Notes under the pieces: generated by a model
What the model was told of the DNA's origin: nothing
Database searches by the model: none
What the model saw: only the letters and a program-made list of their open reading frames with translations
In this document: piece after piece, positions 8,757 to 59,200 of the stretch
Layout of the letters: each line of letters opens with the position of its first letter
How positions within the stretch are numbered: the stretch's first letter is position 1
Translations under genes and position numbers: made by a program
DNA from: Desulfitibacter sp. BRH_c19
GTDB lineage: Bacteria > Bacillota > DSM-16504 > Desulfitibacterales > Desulfitibacteraceae
Length of the DNA: 64,000 bases
NCBI GenBank assembly: GCA_001515945.1
Contig: LOER01000026.1
Span: forward strand, 124,001-188,000
Direction of reading: 5' to 3'

Positions 8757-11494
8757 AAATAAGAATAATGTTGGTACTATTGATGTTAATAATGGTGGTG
8801 GGACTGATGCCTGTCAGCACAGGTGCCGTTGAAGTACGTTATCCGAGTGAATTAAGCGGATCTACTGGCGGCGGTAACTATCAGCACGTTTATTACGGAG
8901 AATATGGCGGCAACTCAATAAGATGGCGTGTTCTTGACAACAGAGAGGGGGAGCTGTTCCTGCTGTCCGAGGGATTGGTGGCAAAGAGATTTTTTGGATC
9001 AAATAAATATGGCACAGCGTCTATTCGGACTTGGCTCCTGGGATATTTTATGAGTTCTTTTACAGGCGAGGAACAGGAAATCATTCGCCCACAGCAGGTG
9101 TTTGATCCTGATACTAAAGAAGGAATCAATGCAACATACGATCCAAGCGGCGATAAAGTTTTCCTGCTTTCAAGAGGTGAAGTCAGTGTAACCTATTTCC
9201 CTCGTCTTAAAGCAGACCGCATAAGTACGGATATGTGGTGGCTGCGCACCTCTTATGATACAAATGTCCAGATTGTTAATGATAAAGGAGAAATCAAGTT
9301 TTTGCCTGGGGGGAGTAGCTCGTTGGGTATTCGCCCCGCTTCAAAATTAGATTTGTCATCTATTCTCTTCGCACCTGCCGCTGATACTGGCGAAACTGCA
9401 ACTTTGGGAAAGGATCTTACAGCGGTAAGCCAACTGACCGGTGATATGAAGTTAACTATAGCCGACGACAGCAACCAAACATTGTCCATTGATGACGTTA
9501 CAGCCAACAGCTCCACAAGCGGCAGCGAAGTCACAGTCAATTACAGCGGGGCAACCCCAAGCTCCAGCAACTACCTTTGCGTAGAGCTTACCAGTGAAAG
9601 CGATACCTATCGGGGTGCCATCAAGGAACTAACAGCAGGCAACGCAAGCGGCACAGCAACCTTTAATCTGCCCACAGCACTTACCTATAACAGCTACACC
9701 CTTAAGCTGTGGAATGAAAAATATAACCCGGCAAACCACACCAACTATGGGAGCACTCCAGTAACAACAAGTATTGAATTTGCCAATCCTATTATTAATG
9801 TTATCCCGTTCAGCGGTATTGTGGCAACCCAGTTTAATGGGAACTTGACCGCCCAAGGAGGATTTGGGCCCTACAGCTGGAGCGTTACCGGACTGCCGTC
9901 CGGGCTTAGCTTGGACTCTTCCACCGGTGAAATCAGCGGCACCCCGGAGGATACGGGAACCTATAACTTAACAACTACCGTCACCGATAGTGATAATAAA
10001 ACAGATACGGCAAACTATACCCTAACCATCTATCAGACTTTCTCCATTGACCTAGCTAATCTGACGGTTGATCCCGGGACATTGAGCCCGGGCTTTCACA
10101 AAAACATTGTGACCTATCAGGTGAATGCCGTTTCTAGCATAAACAGCATAGACATCACCGCAGTAATGGAAGACCCCGGCTCTACCTTGACCATTGCCGG
10201 GAGCCCGGCAACCCACACCGTGACTCAATCAGTCTACCTTGATCAGGGTGCCAATCTGATTCCCATTGTAGTCACGGCCTCCGGGGGACACACTCAAAAG
10301 TCCTATGTCATCTCGGTCAACGGTACAGCAAGTGACGCAAACCTGGCAAGCCTTTCGGTTAATGGACATAGTTTAAACCCGGTGTTTTCAGCAGGGGAAA
10401 CAAACTATACTATCAACCTGGACAACAGTGTTGAAACATTGGAACTTTCAGCGTCAACTAGTGACACCAAGGCCTTGATGCTTGTAGAAGGGGCCATTTT
10501 AAATAGCGGGGATTCGCAGACAATTAACCTGGATACAGGGGAAAACACCATAGAGGTGATGGTGGTGGCCCAGGACGCGTCTACTCAGACCTATACTGTG
10601 ACGGTTAACCGTGCTACGGGGAATGTAGATCTTAGCGGTCTGACCCTAAGTGATGGAATCTTGAATCAAACCTTTGACCCGTCAGTTAACCAATATACTG
10701 CCGATGTGGTCAATAGCATTTCTGAGGTTATAGTGACACCAACCCTGTCAGACTCTGAGGCAACCACTACAGTAAACGGGGATGCACCATCCCTACCAGT
10801 CAGTCTTGAAGTAGGGGAAAATACCATTAACATAGTAGTAACAGGAAAAGATGGAGTAAGCACAAAAACCTACCAGGTCATCATTACCCGCAAAGAAGTA
10901 CTGACCATAAACAATGAAAGCCTGCCCATAGGAATAATAGGAGGATCATATGATGCTACTATGACGGCAGCAGGGGGAACTGAAGCTTATACATGGACAG
11001 CAACAGGACTTCCTGCAGAACTCACCCTCAATGAAAATGGAGAAATTACAGGAACCCTTGAGAGTGAAGGAAACTACCTAGTGGAAGTCAAGGTAACTGA
11101 TAGCACTGGAACTGAGGCCAGTAAAACGTTATCTCTGAGGGTTAATCTGGGCTCTGGCAACGGAGCCTACATCATCCATCCTATTGATGACACAACATAT
11201 ACAAAAGGATATACAGAGGGTGCCATTCCAATAATGACAGTAAAAGAAGGCATATCCGGTTTTAAATACTTTTCGGCATTAATTGAGCCTGTTACAGGAA
11301 ATAGTGGGAATGAGGTATGTGTTTTTATTCATATAAGAAACGGACAGCAGATATCAATTAATGCAACAAAGGCGGATTTTGATACAGTAAATCAAGCAAA
11401 GGCCGCATTCAATGTGAGGGCAGGTGATATCATCAAATCCTATATCGTAGACGATTTAACCAACGACCCGGATACCAATCCCAATGTTTTATAG
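8753..11494 (+). CDS. Secreted multidomain surface protein (DUF6273, putative Ig and cadherin-like domains)
   Basis: 913 residues. A signal peptide is visible (MKIRIMLVLLMLIMVVGLMP, processing near STGAVE). Residues about 35-205 resemble DUF6273 (GGNSIRWRVLDNREGELFLL, SIRTWLLGYF, DMWWLRTSYD). About 345-428 and 718-800 are two putative-Ig (He_PIG) units (FGPYSWSVTGLPSGLSLD; EAYTWTATGLPAELTLN). Between them are three cadherin-like beta-sandwich units with repeated LS-N-G-LNPxF and TYTVTVNR patterns. No SLH or LPXTG anchor is seen, so it may be held by the SLH protein encoded 28 bases downstream. Role: cell-surface or matrix protein, ligand unknown. Ends in TAG. Confidence 0.8.
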   Translation: MKIRIMLVLLMLIMVVGLMPVSTGAVEVRYPSELSGSTGGGNYQHVYYGEYGGNSIRWRVLDNREGELFLLSEGLVAKRFFGSNKYGTASIRTWLLGYFMSSFTGEEQEIIRPQQVFDPDTKEGINATYDPSGDKVFLLSRGEVSVTYFPRLKADRISTDMWWLRTSYDTNVQIVNDKGEIKFLPGGSSSLGIRPASKLDLSSILFAPAADTGETATLGKDLTAVSQLTGDMKLTIADDSNQTLSIDDVTANSSTSGSEVTVNYSGATPSSSNYLCVELTSESDTYRGAIKELTAGNASGTATFNLPTALTYNSYTLKLWNEKYNPANHTNYGSTPVTTSIEFANPIINVIPFSGIVATQFNGNLTAQGGFGPYSWSVTGLPSGLSLDSSTGEISGTPEDTGTYNLTTTVTDSDNKTDTANYTLTIYQTFSIDLANLTVDPGTLSPGFHKNIVTYQVNAVSSINSIDITAVMEDPGSTLTIAGSPATHTVTQSVYLDQGANLIPIVVTASGGHTQKSYVISVNGTASDANLASLSVNGHSLNPVFSAGETNYTINLDNSVETLELSASTSDTKALMLVEGAILNSGDSQTINLDTGENTIEVMVVAQDASTQTYTVTVNRATGNVDLSGLTLSDGILNQTFDPSVNQYTADVVNSISEVIVTPTLSDSEATTTVNGDAPSLPVSLEVGENTINIVVTGKDGVSTKTYQVIITRKEVLTINNESLPIGIIGGSYDATMTAAGGTEAYTWTATGLPAELTLNENGEITGTLESEGNYLVEVKVTDSTGTEASKTLSLRVNLGSGNGAYIIHPIDDTTYTKGYTEGAIPIMTVKEGISGFKYFSALIEPVTGNSGNEVCVFIHIRNGQQISINATKADFDTVNQAKAAFNVRAGDIIKSYIVDDLTNDPDTNPNVL

Positions 11495-11522
11495 ACGGAC
11501 ACTTTTAAAAAGAGGTGATAAA

Positions 11523-13091
11523 ATGATTAAGAGAAATTCTATTCTGAGTGTTTGTAGAATTTTCATATACAGCTTTTTGTGTCTGGCATTGGTTGTTCCT
11601 GGTTCAGCTTTTGCAGATACTATCAGTCTAACAATTGAACCCACAAGGGGATATGCAGGGGATAGTGTAATCGCTTCCGGCACAGCAGGTCATTCAGAAT
11701 GGGTGACCATAAAGGGCTTGGATGGTGAAGGTAGCATTGTATACTTAAATTCTATTATGTCAGATGAAAACGGTAATTACTCCGATACATTCAGAATCCC
11801 GGACATCCCACCAGGGGAGCTTCGGTTAATAGCGGGGTATGGAAGTAATATAATCACAGAGCTGTTTACAGTTGCTGCTTCCCGCTCCGGTGGTGGAGGA
11901 GGAAGGAATGTAGCACATACCTACAAAGCAGTTGTTTCAAGAAACAGTAAACCGGAGACCAATCTACCGGTCAATGTCAATTCTGATAAAGACAGGGCAA
12001 CAGTAAACCTGGAAACTTTGACGGGGGATATTTTCACAGGCAAGGAAAGGACCACCGTCATCGTGCCTTCCATCCATGGAGTGACCTCCTATACCTTGGG
12101 GATTCCCGCAGATACCATGTCCCGCTCTCAAAGGGAAGGTGCATTGACCTTCTCTACTGACCCAGGAAGTATCACCATAGGGGATAATATGCTTTCAGGG
12201 ATTTCGGAAACGGAAGGCAAAGAAACATGTATCACTATAGGTGAGGGAAACAAATCCCACCTGCCTGATGAAATAAAAGCAGCTATAGGTGAACGACCCT
12301 TAGTTCAGCTCACATTGACAGTAGATGGAGAGCAAACCCAATGGAATAACCCAGAGGCACCAGTCATGGTCGCCATACCGTATATTCCTACAGAAGAGGA
12401 GCTAAAGGACCCAGAGCATATCACAATATGGTATATTGACGGCGAGGGTAATGTAGTGGAAGTACCATCAGGAAGGTATGACCCTGCCACGGGATTGGTC
12501 ACCTTCACAACCACACATTTTAGTAAATATGCTGTTGTATATGTAACAAAAACTTTTGAAGACTTGGAAAGTGTGGCATGGGCGGAGAAACAAATTGAAG
12601 TCCTTGCATCTAAGGGTATATTGAAAGGTACATTGGAAAAAGAATACGCACCTCAAACAAACATCACAAGGGCAGACTTCCTGTATTTTTTCGTAAGGAC
12701 CTTGGGTGTCGATGCCAAGGTTGATGAAAACTTTGATGACATAAGTGAAGATGCATATTACTACAAAGAAATAGCAATAGCCAAAAAGCTCGGCATCACC
12801 AATGGCATTGGAAACAACAAATTCAACCCCAATGAAAGCATCACCAGGCAGGACATGATGACACTTACGGAAAGGGCCTTAAGAATGCTGAAAAAACTTG
12901 AACAACAAGGAACAGCTTCAGACTTGGAGAAGTTTGTTGACCAATCCAGTATTGCAGCCTATGCTGTAGATAGCGTTGCTTCTGTAGTAAAGGAAGGGTT
13001 GATCGTGGGTAGTGCTGATAAGATTAATCCCCTGGGCAATACCACAAGGGCTGAAACAGCCGTATTCTTATACAGGATATATAATAAATAG
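11523..13091 (+). CDS. SLH-domain S-layer-anchored protein
   Basis: 522 residues from ATG 11523, which follows AGAGGTGATAA. The signal peptide ends near GSAFA at about residue 31. Residues 32-118 look like a bacterial Ig-like fold (YAGDSVIASGTAGHSEWVTI), followed by a SGGGGG linker at 122-127, a beta-rich central region, and from about 345 to the end three SLH modules (WAEKQIEVLASKGILKG, NITRADFLYFFVRTLG, SITRQDMMTLTERAL, NTTRAETAVFLYRI). SLH modules bind pyruvylated secondary wall polymer. Likely the anchored partner of the preceding surface protein and in the same operon. Ends in TAG. Confidence 0.85.
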   Translation: MIKRNSILSVCRIFIYSFLCLALVVPGSAFADTISLTIEPTRGYAGDSVIASGTAGHSEWVTIKGLDGEGSIVYLNSIMSDENGNYSDTFRIPDIPPGELRLIAGYGSNIITELFTVAASRSGGGGGRNVAHTYKAVVSRNSKPETNLPVNVNSDKDRATVNLETLTGDIFTGKERTTVIVPSIHGVTSYTLGIPADTMSRSQREGALTFSTDPGSITIGDNMLSGISETEGKETCITIGEGNKSHLPDEIKAAIGERPLVQLTLTVDGEQTQWNNPEAPVMVAIPYIPTEEELKDPEHITIWYIDGEGNVVEVPSGRYDPATGLVTFTTTHFSKYAVVYVTKTFEDLESVAWAEKQIEVLASKGILKGTLEKEYAPQTNITRADFLYFFVRTLGVDAKVDENFDDISEDAYYYKEIAIAKKLGITNGIGNNKFNPNESITRQDMMTLTERALRMLKKLEQQGTASDLEKFVDQSSIAAYAVDSVASVVKEGLIVGSADKINPLGNTTRAETAVFLYRIYNK

Positions 13092-13132
13092 TAAACGTCT
13101 TATCCTAAAAATGGTGAGATTTTAGTTATCGG

Positions 13133-13172
13133 AAAAAGTAGTTGGCTCAATGAATAGAGTCAACTACTTTTT
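13133..13172. terminator. Bidirectional terminator between convergent genes
   Basis: A 16-bp stem (AAAAAGTAGTTGGCTC against GAGTCAACTACTTTTT, one G-U) with an 8-base loop lies between the SLH gene and the sigma-54 activator gene. The A-run and T-run on either side let it work for both strands. Confidence 0.8.
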
Positions 13173-13187
13173 ACTAGAGCAATATGA

Positions 13188-14972
13188 TTATCCTAATAAG
13201 TCATATTTTTTTAATTTCCGATAAAGCGTGGCTAAACCTATATTCATGTTGTGGGCAATTTGCTTTTTAGCTCTCAAAGAGGTTCCTCCTTTTTGTAAAG
13301 CTTCCATAAGCATCTGTTTTTCACTAATCTGAACTCTTTCTTTAAAGTCTTCCGGTTCCGAAATAGGAATATCAATGGGCGTAAACAACCAGGGGGGCAA
13401 ATATTCATTGGAAATAATTGCTCCGGTAGGAGAAAAGTTAATGGCATATTCCATGGCGTTTTCCAATTCTCTTACGTTTCCTGGCCATGGATAAGATAAC
13501 AGGACATTGAGGGCTTCTGGGGAAACCCCACGGATATTTTTTTTCAAGCTTGCAGCGTATTTTTCGCACATATAATCAACGAGGAGAGGTATATCTTCTG
13601 GCCGTTGTCTTAAAGGGGGAATGACGAGAGGAATGACATTTAGGCGGTAATATAAATCTTCCCGAAATAATTTTTTTGCAATCTGTTCTTTCAAGTTTTG
13701 GTTAGTAGCTGAGATAATTCTGACATCCACATGAATTTTTTTTGTTCCACCTATTTTTTGAATGGTTTTTTCCTGCAAAACTCTTAAAATTTTAACCTGC
13801 AGGTGTAGGGGCATATCTCCGATTTCATCTAAAAAGATGGTGCCCCCTTCAGCCAGTTCAAATAAGCCGGGTTTTCCGTCGTGTTTAGCCCCTGTAAAAG
13901 CACCTTTTTCGTATCCAAATAGCTCACTTTCTAGTAGTGAGTCTGGAATGGCACTACAGTTAATGTCCACAAAAGGTTCCTTTGCCCGAAGGCTGGAATT
14001 ATGAATAGCCCGAGCAAACAGTTCTTTTCCAGTCCCACTTTCCCCTGTAATCAAGATCGTGGAATAGCTTTGGGCCACATTTAAGGCCATTTTTTTTGCT
14101 TCTTTTATAATTAGGCTCTTGCCGATGATATGATCAAATGCTGTTGTTTGTTCCCTCTTGGTAAGACGGTAGGCTACACGATAAATGCTTTCTTCTGGAG
14201 AAAAAGACTCTACGGCACCGACGATGGTATCTGCGTCTTTAATTAGAGTAGCATTAGAAACTAGGTTAATGCTTTCTCCTAAGGTATTATTACAGTAGAT
14301 TTTTTCTTCATAAAATGAAGCAGAATTGGATAAAGCTTTGTTAAGCAAACTGTTGGGAGCTACATTGGATATATGTTTTCCTATAGCGTCCTCTTTAGAA
14401 ATTCCATAATTTCTTGCGGCAGATTGATTAAAGCAGGTGATGGTGCCGTGCTCGTTGCAGGATATGATTCCCTCGTGTACCGAATTTATGATTGTCTCCA
14501 AATATTCATTAGTCCGACACACCTCTTCCATAAAGATAGCTTCCTGAAGTTTTGTTGCCAAAAGATCGGCCATCTTCCCCGTAAAATCAAGGAAAATATT
14601 TTGATTGTTTATAAGAATTTCTTTTTGAATTTCGTTAAACCCCACTAAACTTATTACTCCATAACACTTTCCATTTGCGGTGATGGGATAGTAAATACCA
14701 CCTAAATAATAACAATCATCTTTATCGGGACAGGGAGCACACATTTTGTGTTGACCAGGCTTAGTTAAAACGAATGGATGATTGCTTTCTAGTACGTACC
14801 GGTTAATATGGGAATCAGATAACCTTTGATGCAATAGTAGTCCTCTTATTCGCCCTGTGGCACCTAAAACAATGTAATCCTCATCTACAATTTCTGTTTC
14901 AACCTTAAGTGCTGCGGAAATCACTTCTGCAACACTTTGTACATCTTTTTGAATTTTATAGAGATAACCCAT
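13188..14972 (-). CDS. Sigma-54-dependent transcriptional activator (sensor-PAS-AAA+-Fis)
   Basis: 594 residues. The N-terminal sensor region (about 1-150) contains a cysteine group [10 protein letters not shown] (Cys78/81/87) that could bind metal or sense redox. A PAS domain follows (about 155-265; [18 protein letters not shown]). The AAA+ domain has Walker A GESGTGKE (310-317) and the sigma-54 contact loop GAFTGA (357-362). The C-terminus is a Fis-type helix-turn-helix ending in [17 protein letters not shown]. It is divergent from the methylamine operon, which has a matching -24/-12 promoter, so it is the probable activator of that operon. The effector (amine, corrinoid or redox state) is unknown. 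ATG 14972 follows GAGGAGG. Confidence 0.88.
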
Positions 14973-15046
14973 AAAAACCTCCTCAAAAATTATCGATATT
15001 AATAACTTCTTCTCATTTGTTAGAATTCCTTTCTTGAAAGTTGACT

Positions 15047-15067
15047 ATTTCTCAAGTGGTGAGTATT
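15047..15067. promoter_or_regulatory. Imperfect dyad, candidate activator binding site
   Basis: ATTTCTCA and TGAGTATT flank AGTGG (6 of 8 positions symmetrical) about 65-85 bases upstream of the -24/-12 promoter, a usual distance for an enhancer-type site. Only one copy is obvious. Confidence 0.3.
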
Positions 15068-15131
15068 CTTTTTTGTTCCATTAGCCTTTAAAATAATACT
15101 AGGAGAGCTTTCAGCAGATTTGTTAAACAGT

Positions 15132-15147
15132 TGGCATAATGTTTGCA
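15132..15147 (+). promoter_or_regulatory. Sigma-54 (-24/-12) promoter of the methylamine operon
   Basis: TGGCAT at 15132-15137 and TTGCA at 15143-15147. The invariant GG (15133-15134) and GC (15145-15146) are separated by exactly 10 bases, matching the consensus TGGCAC-N5-TTGCA. It lies 45 bases before the first methyltransferase gene and beside a divergent sigma-54 activator gene. Confidence 0.88.
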
Positions 15148-15192
15148 ATATATAACAAAAAATAGGAAGACAAAAGGAGGGACAAGTTTTAG

Positions 15193-16641
15193 ATGAATCA
15201 TGTTAAATGGAAATCAACAATGGAAGTGTTGACAACAAAGGAGATTAATACTGTTCATGAAGCGAGTCTGCACATCCTTGAGAAAACTGGTATTTTAATG
15301 CCATTAGACAATCCCAGGTATGATCGCCTTCAGGACTTAGGTGCGAAAGTTGATCGAGAAAATAAAAGGGTCTATTTTCCACCCAATGTTATAGAGGATG
15401 CTTTAAAAAAAGCTCCATCCAATTACACACTTTGTGCTAGAGATCCAGAAAATGATCTCCCACTTGATGGTGAACATGGCTACCTTACCCTAGATGGATG
15501 CGGAAACCAGGTTATTGATATAGACACTGGTGATGTCTGTTTATCTTCAAAAGAAAGCCTTGGTAACGCCATAAGATTGGCCGACTTCTTACCTCAAATT
15601 GCTTTTTTGTGGCCTTGTATTAGCGCTCAGGACTGTAATCCAAGAATTCAACCGTTACATGAACTGCATGCTATGTTGCTAAATTCAAGTAAGCATATTC
15701 AAGCAATGACGGCGGTAGATCCTGTAAATGCTCATGGTACCGTGGAAATTGCTGCTGCAGTTGTTGGAGGCAAAGAAAATTTAAAGAATAGGCCGATTAT
15801 TTCAAATTTCCAGTGTAGTATTAGCCCACTTTCCTATGATGGTCATGGACTTGAAGCAGCTTTGATATTTGCAGAAGCTGGGGTACCAACAGGTTTTATG
15901 ATCATGCCTATAGGTTGTGCAACTGCACCGGCAACCTTAGCAGGAGAGATTGCTCTTGGAAATGCTGAGATTATTGCCGGAATGGCTTTCTTGCAAATCA
16001 TGTGTCCAGGCACACCTACTTTTTACGGATCTTGTGCTACCATGATGGAGCTAAAAAGGGGAGGAGTTACCTGCGGGGGACCAGAAGATTTTATACTGCA
16101 AGCAGCAGCTGCCCAAATGGCTCATTTCTATCAGGTGCCAGCCAATATAGGCACCTTTGCTACAGGGGCAAAAGCAAGCGATTGGCATGCAGGAGTGGAG
16201 AATTCTATATCTGGAGCAGTAAGCATGTTTTCAAAGGCTGATATGATGTGTGGTGCCGGCTTAATTAACGGGGCCAGTACCTTCTCTTTTGAACAGTGTG
16301 TCATGGATTGTGAAATTTATGAAATTTTACGAAGGGTGACGCAAGGATGTGATGTAAGCCCTGAAACACTAGCATTGGAAGTAATTGACCAAGTAGGTCC
16401 GGGAAATCACTATATGGTAGAAGAACATACAGTCAAGCATTTGAGAGAAGTATGGCAGCCAACGGTGATAGACCGCAGTCTTTATGATGAATGGGTAATA
16501 AAAGGTAAACCGTCACCGGAGCAGATTGCCCGGGAAAAAGCCAAAGAGATTTTGGCTAAACACCAACCTATGAAGCTTCAAAATGCCCAAATAGTTCAAG
16601 AAATAATAAATGAGTATGAGAAGAAAACCAAAAGAAGGTAA
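15193..16641 (+). CDS. Non-pyrrolysine MttB-superfamily methyltransferase
   Basis: 482 residues aligned end to end with the pyrrolysine-type MttB encoded downstream (for example ISPLSYDGHGLEAALIFAEA, ATLAGEIALGNAEIIAGM, TFYGSCATMMELKRGG, and the C-terminal VEEHTVKHLRE). At the pyrrolysine position it has an ordinary residue (Ala or Thr in FATGAKASDW). Characterised non-pyrrolysine homologues such as MtgB transfer a methyl group from a quaternary amine like glycine betaine to a corrinoid protein. A quaternary amine that feeds tri- or dimethylamine to the next enzymes is therefore plausible, but the substrate is not proven. First gene after the sigma-54 promoter, with AAAGGAGG upstream. Confidence 0.85.
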   Translation: MNHVKWKSTMEVLTTKEINTVHEASLHILEKTGILMPLDNPRYDRLQDLGAKVDRENKRVYFPPNVIEDALKKAPSNYTLCARDPENDLPLDGEHGYLTLDGCGNQVIDIDTGDVCLSSKESLGNAIRLADFLPQIAFLWPCISAQDCNPRIQPLHELHAMLLNSSKHIQAMTAVDPVNAHGTVEIAAAVVGGKENLKNRPIISNFQCSISPLSYDGHGLEAALIFAEAGVPTGFMIMPIGCATAPATLAGEIALGNAEIIAGMAFLQIMCPGTPTFYGSCATMMELKRGGVTCGGPEDFILQAAAAQMAHFYQVPANIGTFATGAKASDWHAGVENSISGAVSMFSKADMMCGAGLINGASTFSFEQCVMDCEIYEILRRVTQGCDVSPETLALEVIDQVGPGNHYMVEEHTVKHLREVWQPTVIDRSLYDEWVIKGKPSPEQIAREKAKEILAKHQPMKLQNAQIVQEIINEYEKKTKRR

Positions 16642-16680: not shown

Positions 16681-18075
16681 ATGATTGAAAATATTTTTAC
16701 CAGAATGGGAGATGGATCTGGAATATATATGAGTCGTGAAGAAATCCAACATGACTTGCAAGAGGGCACCCGTGATGCTGCAGATAGGGGGAATATTTCA
16801 GAACTGTCTAAAGAAGAATTAGATTACCTGTTTGAAATTATTGCTTCACCTGTTAATGTTACCAGTGTGATAAGAGGAAAGGAAGTAGTGACTTCTTCGG
16901 ATTCAGGAGCTTTTAAAATTACTTATCAGGCCAATATAGCTATGGACAGGGCTACGGCTATACAAGTTCATGAGAAGGTTCTCTCGGCGGATTCCCTGGA
17001 CCTGGGAAATATAGACTACAGCTACAAAGCTGTAAAGTCCATTCTCCATGACGAAGCCAAGGTAATGGAAAATGTACAGTTGAACACCACAATACCGATT
17101 TTATACGGAGCCATGCCAAACCTAGGTTTATATACTAAACCAGATGGTCCTGTAGAAAACTGGTCGGAGTTGCTGCCTCTAGGAAAAATAGCTGAAGCTA
17201 GAGCTGCTCAGGAAGAGGCAGTTGAGCATGCTGTAAAAGATATGGTGTATATTGCGGAGGGTATGTATGAAGCCGGAGCGGATGGAATGAATTTTGATAC
17301 CTGTGGTGCCTCAGGGGATGCCGATGTTCTAGCAGCACTAAAGGCAATTGAAATTATAAAACAAAAATACCCTGACTTAGGGATAGAAATGGGTATGGCC
17401 GGAGAATTTATTTTAGGTATGCATGGTCAACTAGAATATGATGGAACGCGTCTGGCCGGCTTATATCCTCATAAGCAGGTAGAAATCGCAGAAAAAGCAG
17501 GGGTAAACATTTTTGGCCCAGTAGTAAATACCAACAGCAACAGGTCATTCCCATGGAATATTGCCAGAGCAGTAACTTTTATAAAAGCTTGTTCTGAAAT
17601 ATCAAATATTCCAGTTCATGCAAATGTGGGAATGGGGGTAGGAGGCACACCAATGTCACCAGTTCCCCCGGCTGATGCGGTGTCAAGAGCTGTTAAAGCC
17701 ATAGTAGAGATTGGGAAGGCTGATGGATTGTAGGTGGGTTCCGGAGATCCATTTGGAAATGAAGCGACTCAAGAAGTAGCCGTTGGCATGGGCGGAATTC
17801 GTACTGCCGGAGATCTGGTATTACGTCTGCAACTGGCCAAAGGTATGAAGATAACAGAAGCTAAAAAATATGTGGCCCAAAAGTTAGGCATAACGCCATT
17901 TGAATTGAGTGACTGCTCAATAATGCGGGAAATACGCGAGGAATTGGATATAGGATATCCTATGCCAAACCATGGGGCAGCTAAGGGAATTGAAGCTAAG
18001 ATTCGGATTGCTAGTGTGCTTGGCATCAAAATCAATTCTGTGGAAAGATTTAAGAGAAAAACGGATTTAAAATAG
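16681..18075 (+). CDS. mtbB: Dimethylamine methyltransferase with in-frame UAG (pyrrolysine)
   Basis: 464 residues if the TAG at codon 351 (17731-17733) is read as pyrrolysine. The sequence around it (KADGL, pyrrolysine, VGSGDPFGNEA) and the flanks (MNFDTCGASGDADVLAALKA, MGMAGEFILGMHGQ, NVGMGVGGTPMSPVPPADAV) match MtbB, in which pyrrolysine is at about 356. It forms a TIM barrel that moves a methyl group from dimethylamine to the corrinoid protein MtbC. Reading stops at a second TAG (18073-18075), with TGA only nine codons later (18100-18102). AGGAGG lies before ATG 16681. No corrinoid protein gene is in the window. Confidence 0.93.
17731..17733 (+). other. In-frame UAG decoded as pyrrolysine in mtbB
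   Basis: Codon 351 of mtbB. The protein similarity continues in the same frame for 113 codons after it. Six-base arms ATGGAT (17723-17728) and ATCCAT (17747-17752) bracket the codon, a weak candidate context hairpin. Confidence 0.92.
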
Positions 18076-18098
18076 ATTTTTACAGAAAGGGTGAGGAT

Positions 18099-19571
18099 AT
18101 GAAAAGAAACTTGCATGCAGGCAGAAATTCATTTATTGGTTGTGGTATTAACCTCTTTAGTGATGAGGATTTAGAGATGATTCATGATGCCACACTAGAA
18201 GTACTCGAAGTTGCCGGATTATATGTTCAGAGCAATGATGCTATGGATATCTATGAAGGTGGAGGGTGTATTGTCGATAGGAAAGAACAAATTGTTAAAA
18301 TCCCCGCTCATATCGTGGAGGAAGCAATAGTTTCAGCTCCTAAAAAGGTGCTTCTAGCCGGAAGGGATCCTAAACATGATATTGTGATGGAAAGCGGCAG
18401 AGTTAATTTTTGTCCATTTGGAGAAGGAATTATGGTGATTGATCCTTATACTGGAGAGTATCGAAAATCTACCAAAGCAGACAAAGGAAATGTTGCGAGA
18501 CTAGTTGATGCCCTGGACCAATATGATATGTTGGAGAATACTGTTGCTCCCCGGGATGTGCATCCAGAAATGGAAAGCTTGCATAATTATGAAGTGACAA
18601 TTTCAAATACCACAAAACATGTTCCGCAGCCTTGTCATGATAAGCGTTCTGCTCAACTGCTGATAGAAATGGCTGCAGCGGTAGCAGGTGGGAAAGAAAA
18701 ACTTAAGGACAGGCCTATTGTTTCTGGCTGTACTTGTCCACAAAGCCCATTAACAATTTCGGAAGGGTGCGCTGACCCAATTATTGAATATGCAAAAGCC
18801 AATTTACCACAGAATATTTTATCTATGGCTTTAGCAGGTGCTACTTCCCCGGTGACTTTGGCGGGTACATTAGTAACTCATAATGCTGAGGTGCTAGGTG
18901 GGATTGTTTTGGCCCAGTTGACGAGGAAAGGGGCACCTGTAATGTACGGTAGCTCTACCTCAATGATTGATTTAAAACTAAGCACAGCCTCGGTAGGTTG
19001 CCCGGAACTTGGACTGATAAGTGCAGCCGTGGCTAAGTTGGCTCGATTTTACTTGCTACCCAGCTATGTAGCTGGTACATAGGGCGATAGCAAACTCTCC
19101 GACGCACAATCAGGCCACGAAAAAACTTTAACAACCCTTTTACCAGCATTGGCAGGTGCCAATATGATTTACGGTGGGGGCATGTTGGAGATGGGTCTTA
19201 CCATGAGTTTCGGTCAATTAGTAATGGATAATGAGTTTATTGCAATGACGAGAAAGGTATTGGAAGGAATTCCAGTCAATGATGAGACTTTGGCAGTGGA
19301 TGTGATCAAAAGTGTAGGTGCACGAGGACACTTCCTGGCCGAGGAGCATACTATAAAACACATGAGGAAATTATCGCAAACTAAGATCATGGACCGCAGG
19401 ATGCGCCAGTTTTGGACAGAGAAAGGTTCTAAAGATTTGGCAACCACCTGTGATGAAAGGGCAAGGGAAATACTAGAGACGCATAAACCAGATCCATTGC
19501 CGGATCATGTCCATAAGAAACTTCTCTCTATTATTAAAGAAAGAGAAGAGGAGTTGGGAATTAATGGGTAA
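18099..19571 (+). CDS. mttB: Trimethylamine methyltransferase with in-frame UAG (pyrrolysine)
   Basis: 490 residues if the TAG at codon 328 (19080-19082) is read as pyrrolysine. The frame and the MttB similarity continue after it (GDSKLSDAQSGHEKTL, ANMIYGGGMLEMGLTMSFGQ) to TAA at 19571. In archaeal MttB the pyrrolysine is at about 334, so the position fits. The enzyme transfers a methyl group from trimethylamine to the corrinoid MttC. The ATG overlaps the back-up TGA of mtbB and follows AAAGGGTGAGG. Last gene of the operon, followed by a hairpin at 19636-19670. MttC, MtbA and pyl genes must be elsewhere. Confidence 0.94.
19080..19082 (+). other. In-frame UAG decoded as pyrrolysine in mttB
   Basis: Codon 328 of mttB. 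Aligned with the non-pyrrolysine paralogue at 15193-16641, the shared SD dipeptide six residues later fixes the position, where the paralogue has Ala. Confidence 0.93.
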
Positions 19572-58120: not shown

Positions 58121-59200
58121 CTACTGTTTCATTCTTTTACAAACATCGGCCATTACAATAAAGTTATCTACAGTTTTAGGCATGAAGAGACCAGATGCAG
58201 TACCGCCTAAAATATAACCTCCACCTTTACCTGCAGCTTTAATACATTCTAAGCTAAGTTTTTCTACCTCTTCCGTAGAGGCTTTGGAAAGTACATTCAT
58301 ATCATCAATGTTGCCAACAAGGCACATTTTATTTCCAAGTCGTTCCTTCAGAACATGAAGATCAACATCACCTAAGGGGGGAGCTTCTAGCGGATCCAGA
58401 GCATCTGGGCCAATTTCAATAATGTCATCAATAACATCCATCATTTTATCATGCATATGCATATAGGCAATTCCACCACATTCATGAATTGTATCTACCA
58501 GTTTTTTGTCATACTTAACAATAATGTCCTTGAAGAATCTAGGTGGTAATACTCTAGGCGACGCATACTCTGCTCCAATTATTCTCCAAACCTTAACTCC
58601 CAGCTTACTTGCATTTTTTATTACATCACAAGCTCTTTCCACCAGAGCATCTTGTAATTGAATAATCAGTTCTGTATTGCTATATGTCTGAATTAAATTT
58701 TGTTCAGTTCCAAAGTAGTACGCAGGACAATAGAAAGGATTTGATATTTCTCCTAGCACAAGTCCTTCGGTACCAATATAGTTTTCCCACTTATAAAAGT
58801 TTTCCATTGGTGGATTAAGAGGCTTATAAGGAATAGAAAGGAATTTTTCCACATCTGAGGGATCTTTAAAAAGGTGTTCAAGATACCAATCAATATGGTC
58901 TCCAGTTGGTTTTATGGTTGCAGTTAGTTCTCCCTTGGGAGTTTGTATTACTTCTCTAATATTACCATCTGAAGTAGAAAATCTTTTGAAAACATTATGC
59001 AATTCACCCCCAACCCAGGTTTCGGCCTTGGTGCCTGTACGTACTGCCACCATAATATCAGTATTTGCTACAAGCCTATCAGCATAATCCTTTGGTGCAA
59101 GCCCAAACCAGGCATCAAAAACAAAAGGTGAACATGGTATTCTGTCAGTCTCCATAAGCTGTAAGGTTCTTAAAACTCTTTCTCTTGATGTTAACTTCAT
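58121..59200 (-). CDS. URO-D-superfamily (MtaA/MtbA-like) protein with atypical metal site
   Basis: 359 residues. N-terminal SRERVLRTLQLMETDRIPCS is typical of the uroporphyrinogen decarboxylase superfamily, as are GPDALDPLEAPPLGDVDLHV and LGNKMCLVGNIDD. In corrinoid:CoM methyltransferases of this fold a zinc site is made by HxC and a late Cys. Here these places read HMHDKM and LGGTASGLF, so the usual cysteines are absent. It could be a methyltransferase with a different metal site or a lyase. AAGGAGG precedes ATG. It is 57 bases after the GntR gene and probably regulated by it. Ends in TAG. Confidence 0.78.
   Translation of the reverse strand: MKLTSRERVLRTLQLMETDRIPCSPFVFDAWFGLAPKDYADRLVANTDIMVAVRTGTKAETWVGGELHNVFKRFSTSDGNIREVIQTPKGELTATIKPTGDHIDWYLEHLFKDPSDVEKFLSIPYKPLNPPMENFYKWENYIGTEGLVLGEISNPFYCPAYYFGTEQNLIQTYSNTELIIQLQDALVERACDVIKNASKLGVKVWRIIGAEYASPRVLPPRFFKDIIVKYDKKLVDTIHECGGIAYMHMHDKMMDVIDDIIEIGPDALDPLEAPPLGDVDLHVLKERLGNKMCLVGNIDDMNVLSKASTEEVEKLSLECIKAAGKGGGYILGGTASGLFMPKTVDNFIVMADVCKRMKQ

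Follow-up and report, generated by a model that had tools for sequence, protein, structure and literature searches.

A predicted pyrrolysine-decoded, sigma-54-controlled methylamine methyltransferase operon without an adjacent corrinoid gene in Desulfitibacter sp. BRH_c19

Two neighbouring genes of Desulfitibacter sp. BRH_c19, identified as mtbB and mttB, each contain one in-frame TAG, which raises the question of whether these codons end translation or specify pyrrolysine (Pyl), and with which partner proteins the full-length products would work. The window, which is the whole stretch of DNA analysed here (64,000 nucleotides; G000:C26:124001-188000), is part of a 3.85 Mb genome in which the analysis was made on targeted stretches. 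The locus is very probably a Pyl-decoded, sigma-54-controlled operon for methylamine demethylation, served by a corrinoid protein in trans, and we infer that Pyl is inserted at both TAGs.

The first of these genes, mtbB (16681..18075, + strand), is a putative dimethylamine:corrinoid methyltransferase gene, while mttB (18099..19571, + strand, stop TAA) encodes a putative trimethylamine:corrinoid methyltransferase. A first-pass annotation had placed one in-frame TAG at the Pyl residue of each, with similarity on both sides, and had stated that automatic calling divides each gene in two; both statements agree with the present analysis, as ORF calling gives pieces of 350 and 113 amino acids for mtbB and of 327 and 140 for mttB, and the family matches span the TAG. 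With TAG read as O, mtbB is a single gene for a product of 464 amino acids with the internal TAG at codon 351 (17731..17733, + strand; predicted Pyl), matching nearly the whole TIGR02368 model (511 bits, curated cut-off 369) as well as PF09505 (640 bits). Read in the same way, mttB is a single gene for 490 amino acids with its internal TAG at codon 328 (19080..19082, + strand; predicted Pyl), and its product matches nearly the whole TIGR02369 model (732 bits, curated cut-off 525) and also PF06253. Automatic annotation thus reports four fragments in place of two enzymes that are predicted to be active, by which methylamine metabolism is hidden in this genome.

As aligned with the solved Methanosarcina MttB (7xcl/7xcm), codon 328 of mttB corresponds to Pyl334, and the equivalents of Gly110 and Tyr364 are retained. 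The window MttB thus shares the TAG position and these residues with MttB/MttC of Methanosarcina barkeri (7xcl, 7xcm, 7xcn; PMC9842639), but differs in its bacterial host and in an operon without a cognate corrinoid gene. No sequence relative of MtbB was found in the copy of the PDB searched, so the position of the mtbB TAG was tested comparatively: the codon homologous to codon 351 is TAG in 80/80 related loci of public genomes and never a sense codon, and one internal TAG is present in all the 13 mtbB copies of the source genome and two sister genomes. In an AlphaFold2 model of MtbB (mean pLDDT 92.5) residue 351 lies on a short strand (349-352), and a Foldseek search of this model against the PDB returned generic TIM barrels only (TM-score of about 0.3 to the query). 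Since no MtbB structure came up in the PDB copy searched, the mtbB clade offers candidates for structure determination.

Both mtbB and mttB are almost certainly whole genes that are not broken by TAG. Downstream of the TAGs, dN is low relative to dS in comparison with L064 for mtbB (dN 0.112, dS 0.996) and mttB (dN 0.044, dS 1.457), so both proteins are selected beyond the TAGs; judged from these substitutions, purifying selection continues past both codons. L064 belongs to sister genome G002 (contig JAGXSK010000228.1, isolate CROMO_A_192), and comparisons with L064 and with G002 are therefore not independent. It might be argued that the TAGs are true stops and that the two genes are decaying or yield truncated proteins only, as TAG is a common stop in this genome and ORF callers split both genes; but this reading is highly improbable in view of the selection past both TAGs, the TAG at the same mtbB codon in all 80 relatives, the presence of the whole operon in sister genomes and the complete pyl set described below. 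Chance or sequencing error is an unreasonable source of codons that are conserved, followed by selected sequence and enclosed in full-length family matches. TAG also acts as both sense codon and terminal stop within mtbB, whose own stop is TAG (18073-18075); a TGA follows in the same frame at 18100-18102. TAG is likewise the terminal stop in 10 of the 80 relatives. Since TAG is also an ordinary stop, some truncated MtbB or MttB product is likely.

The first-pass annotation had predicted pylT, a split pylS-type synthetase and pylBCD in the genome, and had named the absence of pyl genes as a finding that would speak against Pyl. The complete set was found on contig C22 (locus L006). It comprises the gene for tRNA-Pyl with the anticodon CTA (11069-11141), followed on one strand by pylB (11214-12323), pylC (12320-13489) and pylSn (13514-13843), whereas pylD (13879-14703) and pylSc (14737-15573) lie on the opposite strand; the products of all five pyl protein genes score above their curated cut-offs. 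The closest PDB entries of PylSc are the bacterial-type PylSc 3dsq/2zni. Split PylSn/PylSc, PylBCD and tRNA-Pyl are common to this genome and the Desulfitobacterium-type cassette (3dsq, 2zni; PMC3941956), whereas the order, in which pylT-B-C-Sn converges on pylSc-pylD, is identical in sister genome G001 but does not correspond to either published arrangement, pylTScBCDSn or pylSnScBCD (PMC3941956). The insertion of a standard amino acid at the UAGs by a near-cognate tRNA, in favour of which no observation was made, is accordingly given almost no weight, as the genome encodes tRNA-Pyl(CTA), PylRS and the entire Pyl biosynthesis pathway, and the mtbB codon is TAG, never sense, in the 80 relatives.

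Decoding as Pyl does not extend to a genome-wide recoding, as TAG is the stop of 38 of 156 sampled ORFs (24%, Pyl codons set aside) and thus ends about a quarter of the genes. In the 241 kb scanned, the ORFs that end in TAG and continue for more than 100 open codons were 12 MttB/MtbB genes and one coincidence of adjacent genes, with no others. One candidate for a new Pyl gene (L146:989-2779, - strand) was rejected, as it comprises a B12-binding aminomutase subunit followed by a separate dehydrogenase; the TAG of the former abuts the in-frame ATG of the latter, and read-through by tRNA-Pyl would fuse both proteins. No excess RNA folding that could act as an insertion signal was seen after the TAGs of mtbB and mttB (z -0.14 and 1.28), and neither avoidance of TAG stops nor selection for backup stops was seen, the distance to the next stop not differing from that for TAA (p=0.70). 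A following G is present at 6 of 12 Pyl codons and at 7 of 38 stops (p=0.055), a difference that is not relied on here.

The operon is transcribed divergently from a putative sigma-54-dependent activator (13188..14972, - strand) with PAS and AAA+ domains (Pfam Sigma54_activat, 242.7 bits), for which the nearest curated model is PrdR (NF041552), matched at 443 bits, below its cut-off of 795. A -24/-12 sigma-54 promoter (TTGGCATAATGTTTGCA; 15131..15147, + strand), the sole exact match in the window, lies 61 bases upstream of the operon and occupies the same place in the sister genomes (L172 and L173), and RpoN is encoded in the genome. Both sister genomes retain the activator (83-84% identical and likewise divergent), the sigma-54 site and the gene order; the nearest named matches are from uncultured Bacillota, G002 among them. 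Of the earlier description of two genes in a sigma-54 operon, sigma-54 control is borne out by the site, the activator and RpoN, but the operon contains three genes.

The additional gene, first in the operon (15193..16641, + strand), encodes an MttB-family protein (PF06253, 293 bits) that contains no TAG at the Pyl site and scores 428 bits against TIGR02369, below the cut-off of 525; on these sequence criteria it is classed as a superfamily relative only, not as a Pyl-MttB. In the alignment, Ala occupies the Pyl position and Cys that of Tyr364, and a family-conserved Gly and Gln are changed. The Ala/Cys replacements are retained in orthologs down to 61% identity, and the values between the window and L064 (dN 0.09, dS 1.64) indicate a maintained protein. 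The gene belongs with the non-Pyl MttB superfamily, exemplified by the glycine betaine methyltransferase MtgB (9yce, 2qne), but is set apart from its other members by its own clade (one FastTree run), the Ala and Cys replacements and the Gly/Gln changes.

A point against the reading of a corrinoid protein in trans is that the operon has no corrinoid gene of its own, as cognate pairing of methyltransferase and corrinoid protein is the rule. Methanosarcina MtbB is reported to use MtbC, not MtmC (PMC9842639). No gene for a methylamine-type corrinoid protein was found in the window by tblastn with the genome's corrinoid proteins as queries (E 1e-3), and the eight closest relatives (L064-L071) likewise have none at a distance of up to 4 kb from mtbB, insofar as their contigs extend that far. 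Among the 80 loci, a corrinoid gene is located within 1 kb of mtbB in 46. The loci were searched at E 1e-12, again by tblastn and with those corrinoid proteins of the source genome that were usable as queries; very distant members could escape both searches. In the three sister genomes a corrinoid gene adjoins 10/10 of the other mtbB copies and 0/3 copies of the window-type operon; among the former is an MtbB paralog with 78% identity (L059/L043) that has a corrinoid gene beside it. The absence of a corrinoid gene is thus a conserved trait of this operon and not incidental, which makes partner specificity directly testable. The window mttB is not encoded together with a cognate MttC, a usual but not strictly defining feature of MttB.

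Corrinoid proteins had been predicted to be encoded elsewhere in the genome, which indeed encodes many of the methylamine type (17 corrinoid-family matches, 14 of them strong), with none found in the window; the likeliest reading is that such proteins act in trans with the enzymes of the operon. The genome further encodes two proteins with a RamA C-terminal domain (RamA-type activases), a CdhC-type acetyl-CoA synthase domain and 18 matches to the URO-D fold, the fold of MtbA, while an MtrH-type methyl acceptor was not found in it. The prediction of a methylcobamide methyltransferase in the genome is consistent with these URO-D-fold matches, but the further statement that none lies in the window is qualified by a URO-D-fold protein encoded at 58121-59200 (- strand). 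This protein is a distant relative of MtaA/CmuA (56.6 bits, cut-off 235.4), and its gene adjoins that of a GntR regulator.

The same observations leave some room for a role other than ordinary catabolism of trimethylamine (TMA) and dimethylamine (DMA), in which the Pyl-read enzymes and the altered MttB relative would form a special unit for another amine, a mixed complex or sensing. In line with such a unit, the eight closest relatives have no corrinoid gene in the vicinity of the operon, as against one within 1 kb in 46 of 80 mtbB loci; adjacent corrinoid genes are distributed 10/10 against 0/3 in the three sister genomes; and the first gene keeps its Ala/Cys pair down to 61% identity and is under purifying selection. 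A special unit of this kind is nevertheless judged unlikely, as MtbB and MttB pass their equivalog cut-offs and keep key active-site residues, and any of the 14 strong members of the corrinoid family found at other loci could act in trans. A further, tentative and rather improbable proposal is that the operon represents a conserved corrinoid-less branch of Pyl methyltransferases (mtbB-mttB, led in some lineages by the Ala/Cys MttB relative), inherited as one unit with its own sigma-54 activator and either using a shared corrinoid protein in trans or having a role other than simple TMA and DMA catabolism; if so, the altered MttB relative would be a partner subunit or act on another amine. Our limited literature search found no description of a conserved Pyl mtbB-mttB unit that is led by an altered relative and has no corrinoid gene.

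In two Emergencia MAGs (L074 and L077) an mtbB-mttB pair is joined by another MttB gene that lacks Pyl, again in a locus devoid of a corrinoid gene, and the divergent sigma-54 activator of L074 is 54% identical to that of the window.

For the preferred reading, methylamine demethylation with a corrinoid protein in trans, the following route may be proposed. The split PylSn/PylSc synthetase would charge tRNA-Pyl(CUA) with pyrrolysine made by PylBCD, and this tRNA would read the one UAG inside each of mtbB and mttB to give full-length enzymes. Trimethylamine (by MttB) and dimethylamine (by MtbB) would then be activated by forming adducts with the Pyl ring. From there each enzyme would pass a methyl group to the Co(I) of a corrinoid protein whose gene lies at another locus, in keeping with the mechanism of the family, where addition of the amine to the Pyl imine precedes transfer of its methyl group to the Co(I) of the corrinoid protein (PMC9842639). 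From the CdhC-type domain and the biology of acetogens, the methyl group is expected to reach tetrahydrofolate and the Wood-Ljungdahl pathway. The host would be an anaerobic, probably acetogenic member of the Bacillota. The substrates TMA and DMA, the corrinoid protein in trans and the final acceptor are what we infer for this operon.

Pyl methyltransferases are already well documented in Bacillota, and what is unusual here is an operon without a corrinoid gene. 'Candidatus Formimonas warabiya' DCMF contains 82 mttB genes and all the pyl genes, and 23 of its 96 methylamine methyltransferase genes have Pyl (PMC6778437); its Pyl-MttB proteins are present in the metaproteome (PMC9768040); further cases are known from gut and marine bacteria (PMC7593587, PMC8318568). 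DCMF resembles the source genome in being a member of the Bacillota with a full pyl set, Pyl-MtbB and numerous MttB both with and without Pyl, the MtbB copies being 60-75% identical to that of the window. Only 67 bases separate the nearest DCMF mtbB (locus L073) from a corrinoid gene, in contrast to the window operon.

The source genome brings together Pyl and non-Pyl MttB relatives and five MtbB copies, all of which contain TAG. Eight of the 40 MttB-family matches contain TAG. Seven of these are full-length, their TAG coinciding with the Pyl site; the eighth is a contig-end fragment (G000:C14:53116-53718) with one TAG and one TAA before that site, probably a decayed copy. Several MttB genes without TAG (L102:2939-4393, L131:238, L097:4137, L092:9369 and L093:4005) are nested in the Pyl-MttB clade with Leu, Ala, Val or Ile in place of Pyl, which suggests that Pyl was lost more than once among these genes. 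No TAG was found among the MtmB matches of the genome (L038, L039, L040 and L041 on G000:C42, C34 and C13; L040 and L041 are partial at contig ends); close to the Pyl site, as placed by eye, the residue is Thr or Met. Non-Pyl relatives of MtmB are known (PMC13044021), and the corrinoid-type gene upstream in L038, L039 and L041 resembles the non-Pyl MtmB/MtqB arrangement (PMC13044021).

An ethanolamine/microcompartment operon (EutB, EutC, EutQ, PduL) immediately precedes the pyl cassette on contig C22 (L144, L145, L006), and the order EutE-PduL-pyl is shared with sister genome G001. Genes for one Pyl-MttB and one non-Pyl MttB lie upstream, together with two choline-kinase-like genes, an arrangement that may link choline demethylation to the use of ethanolamine.
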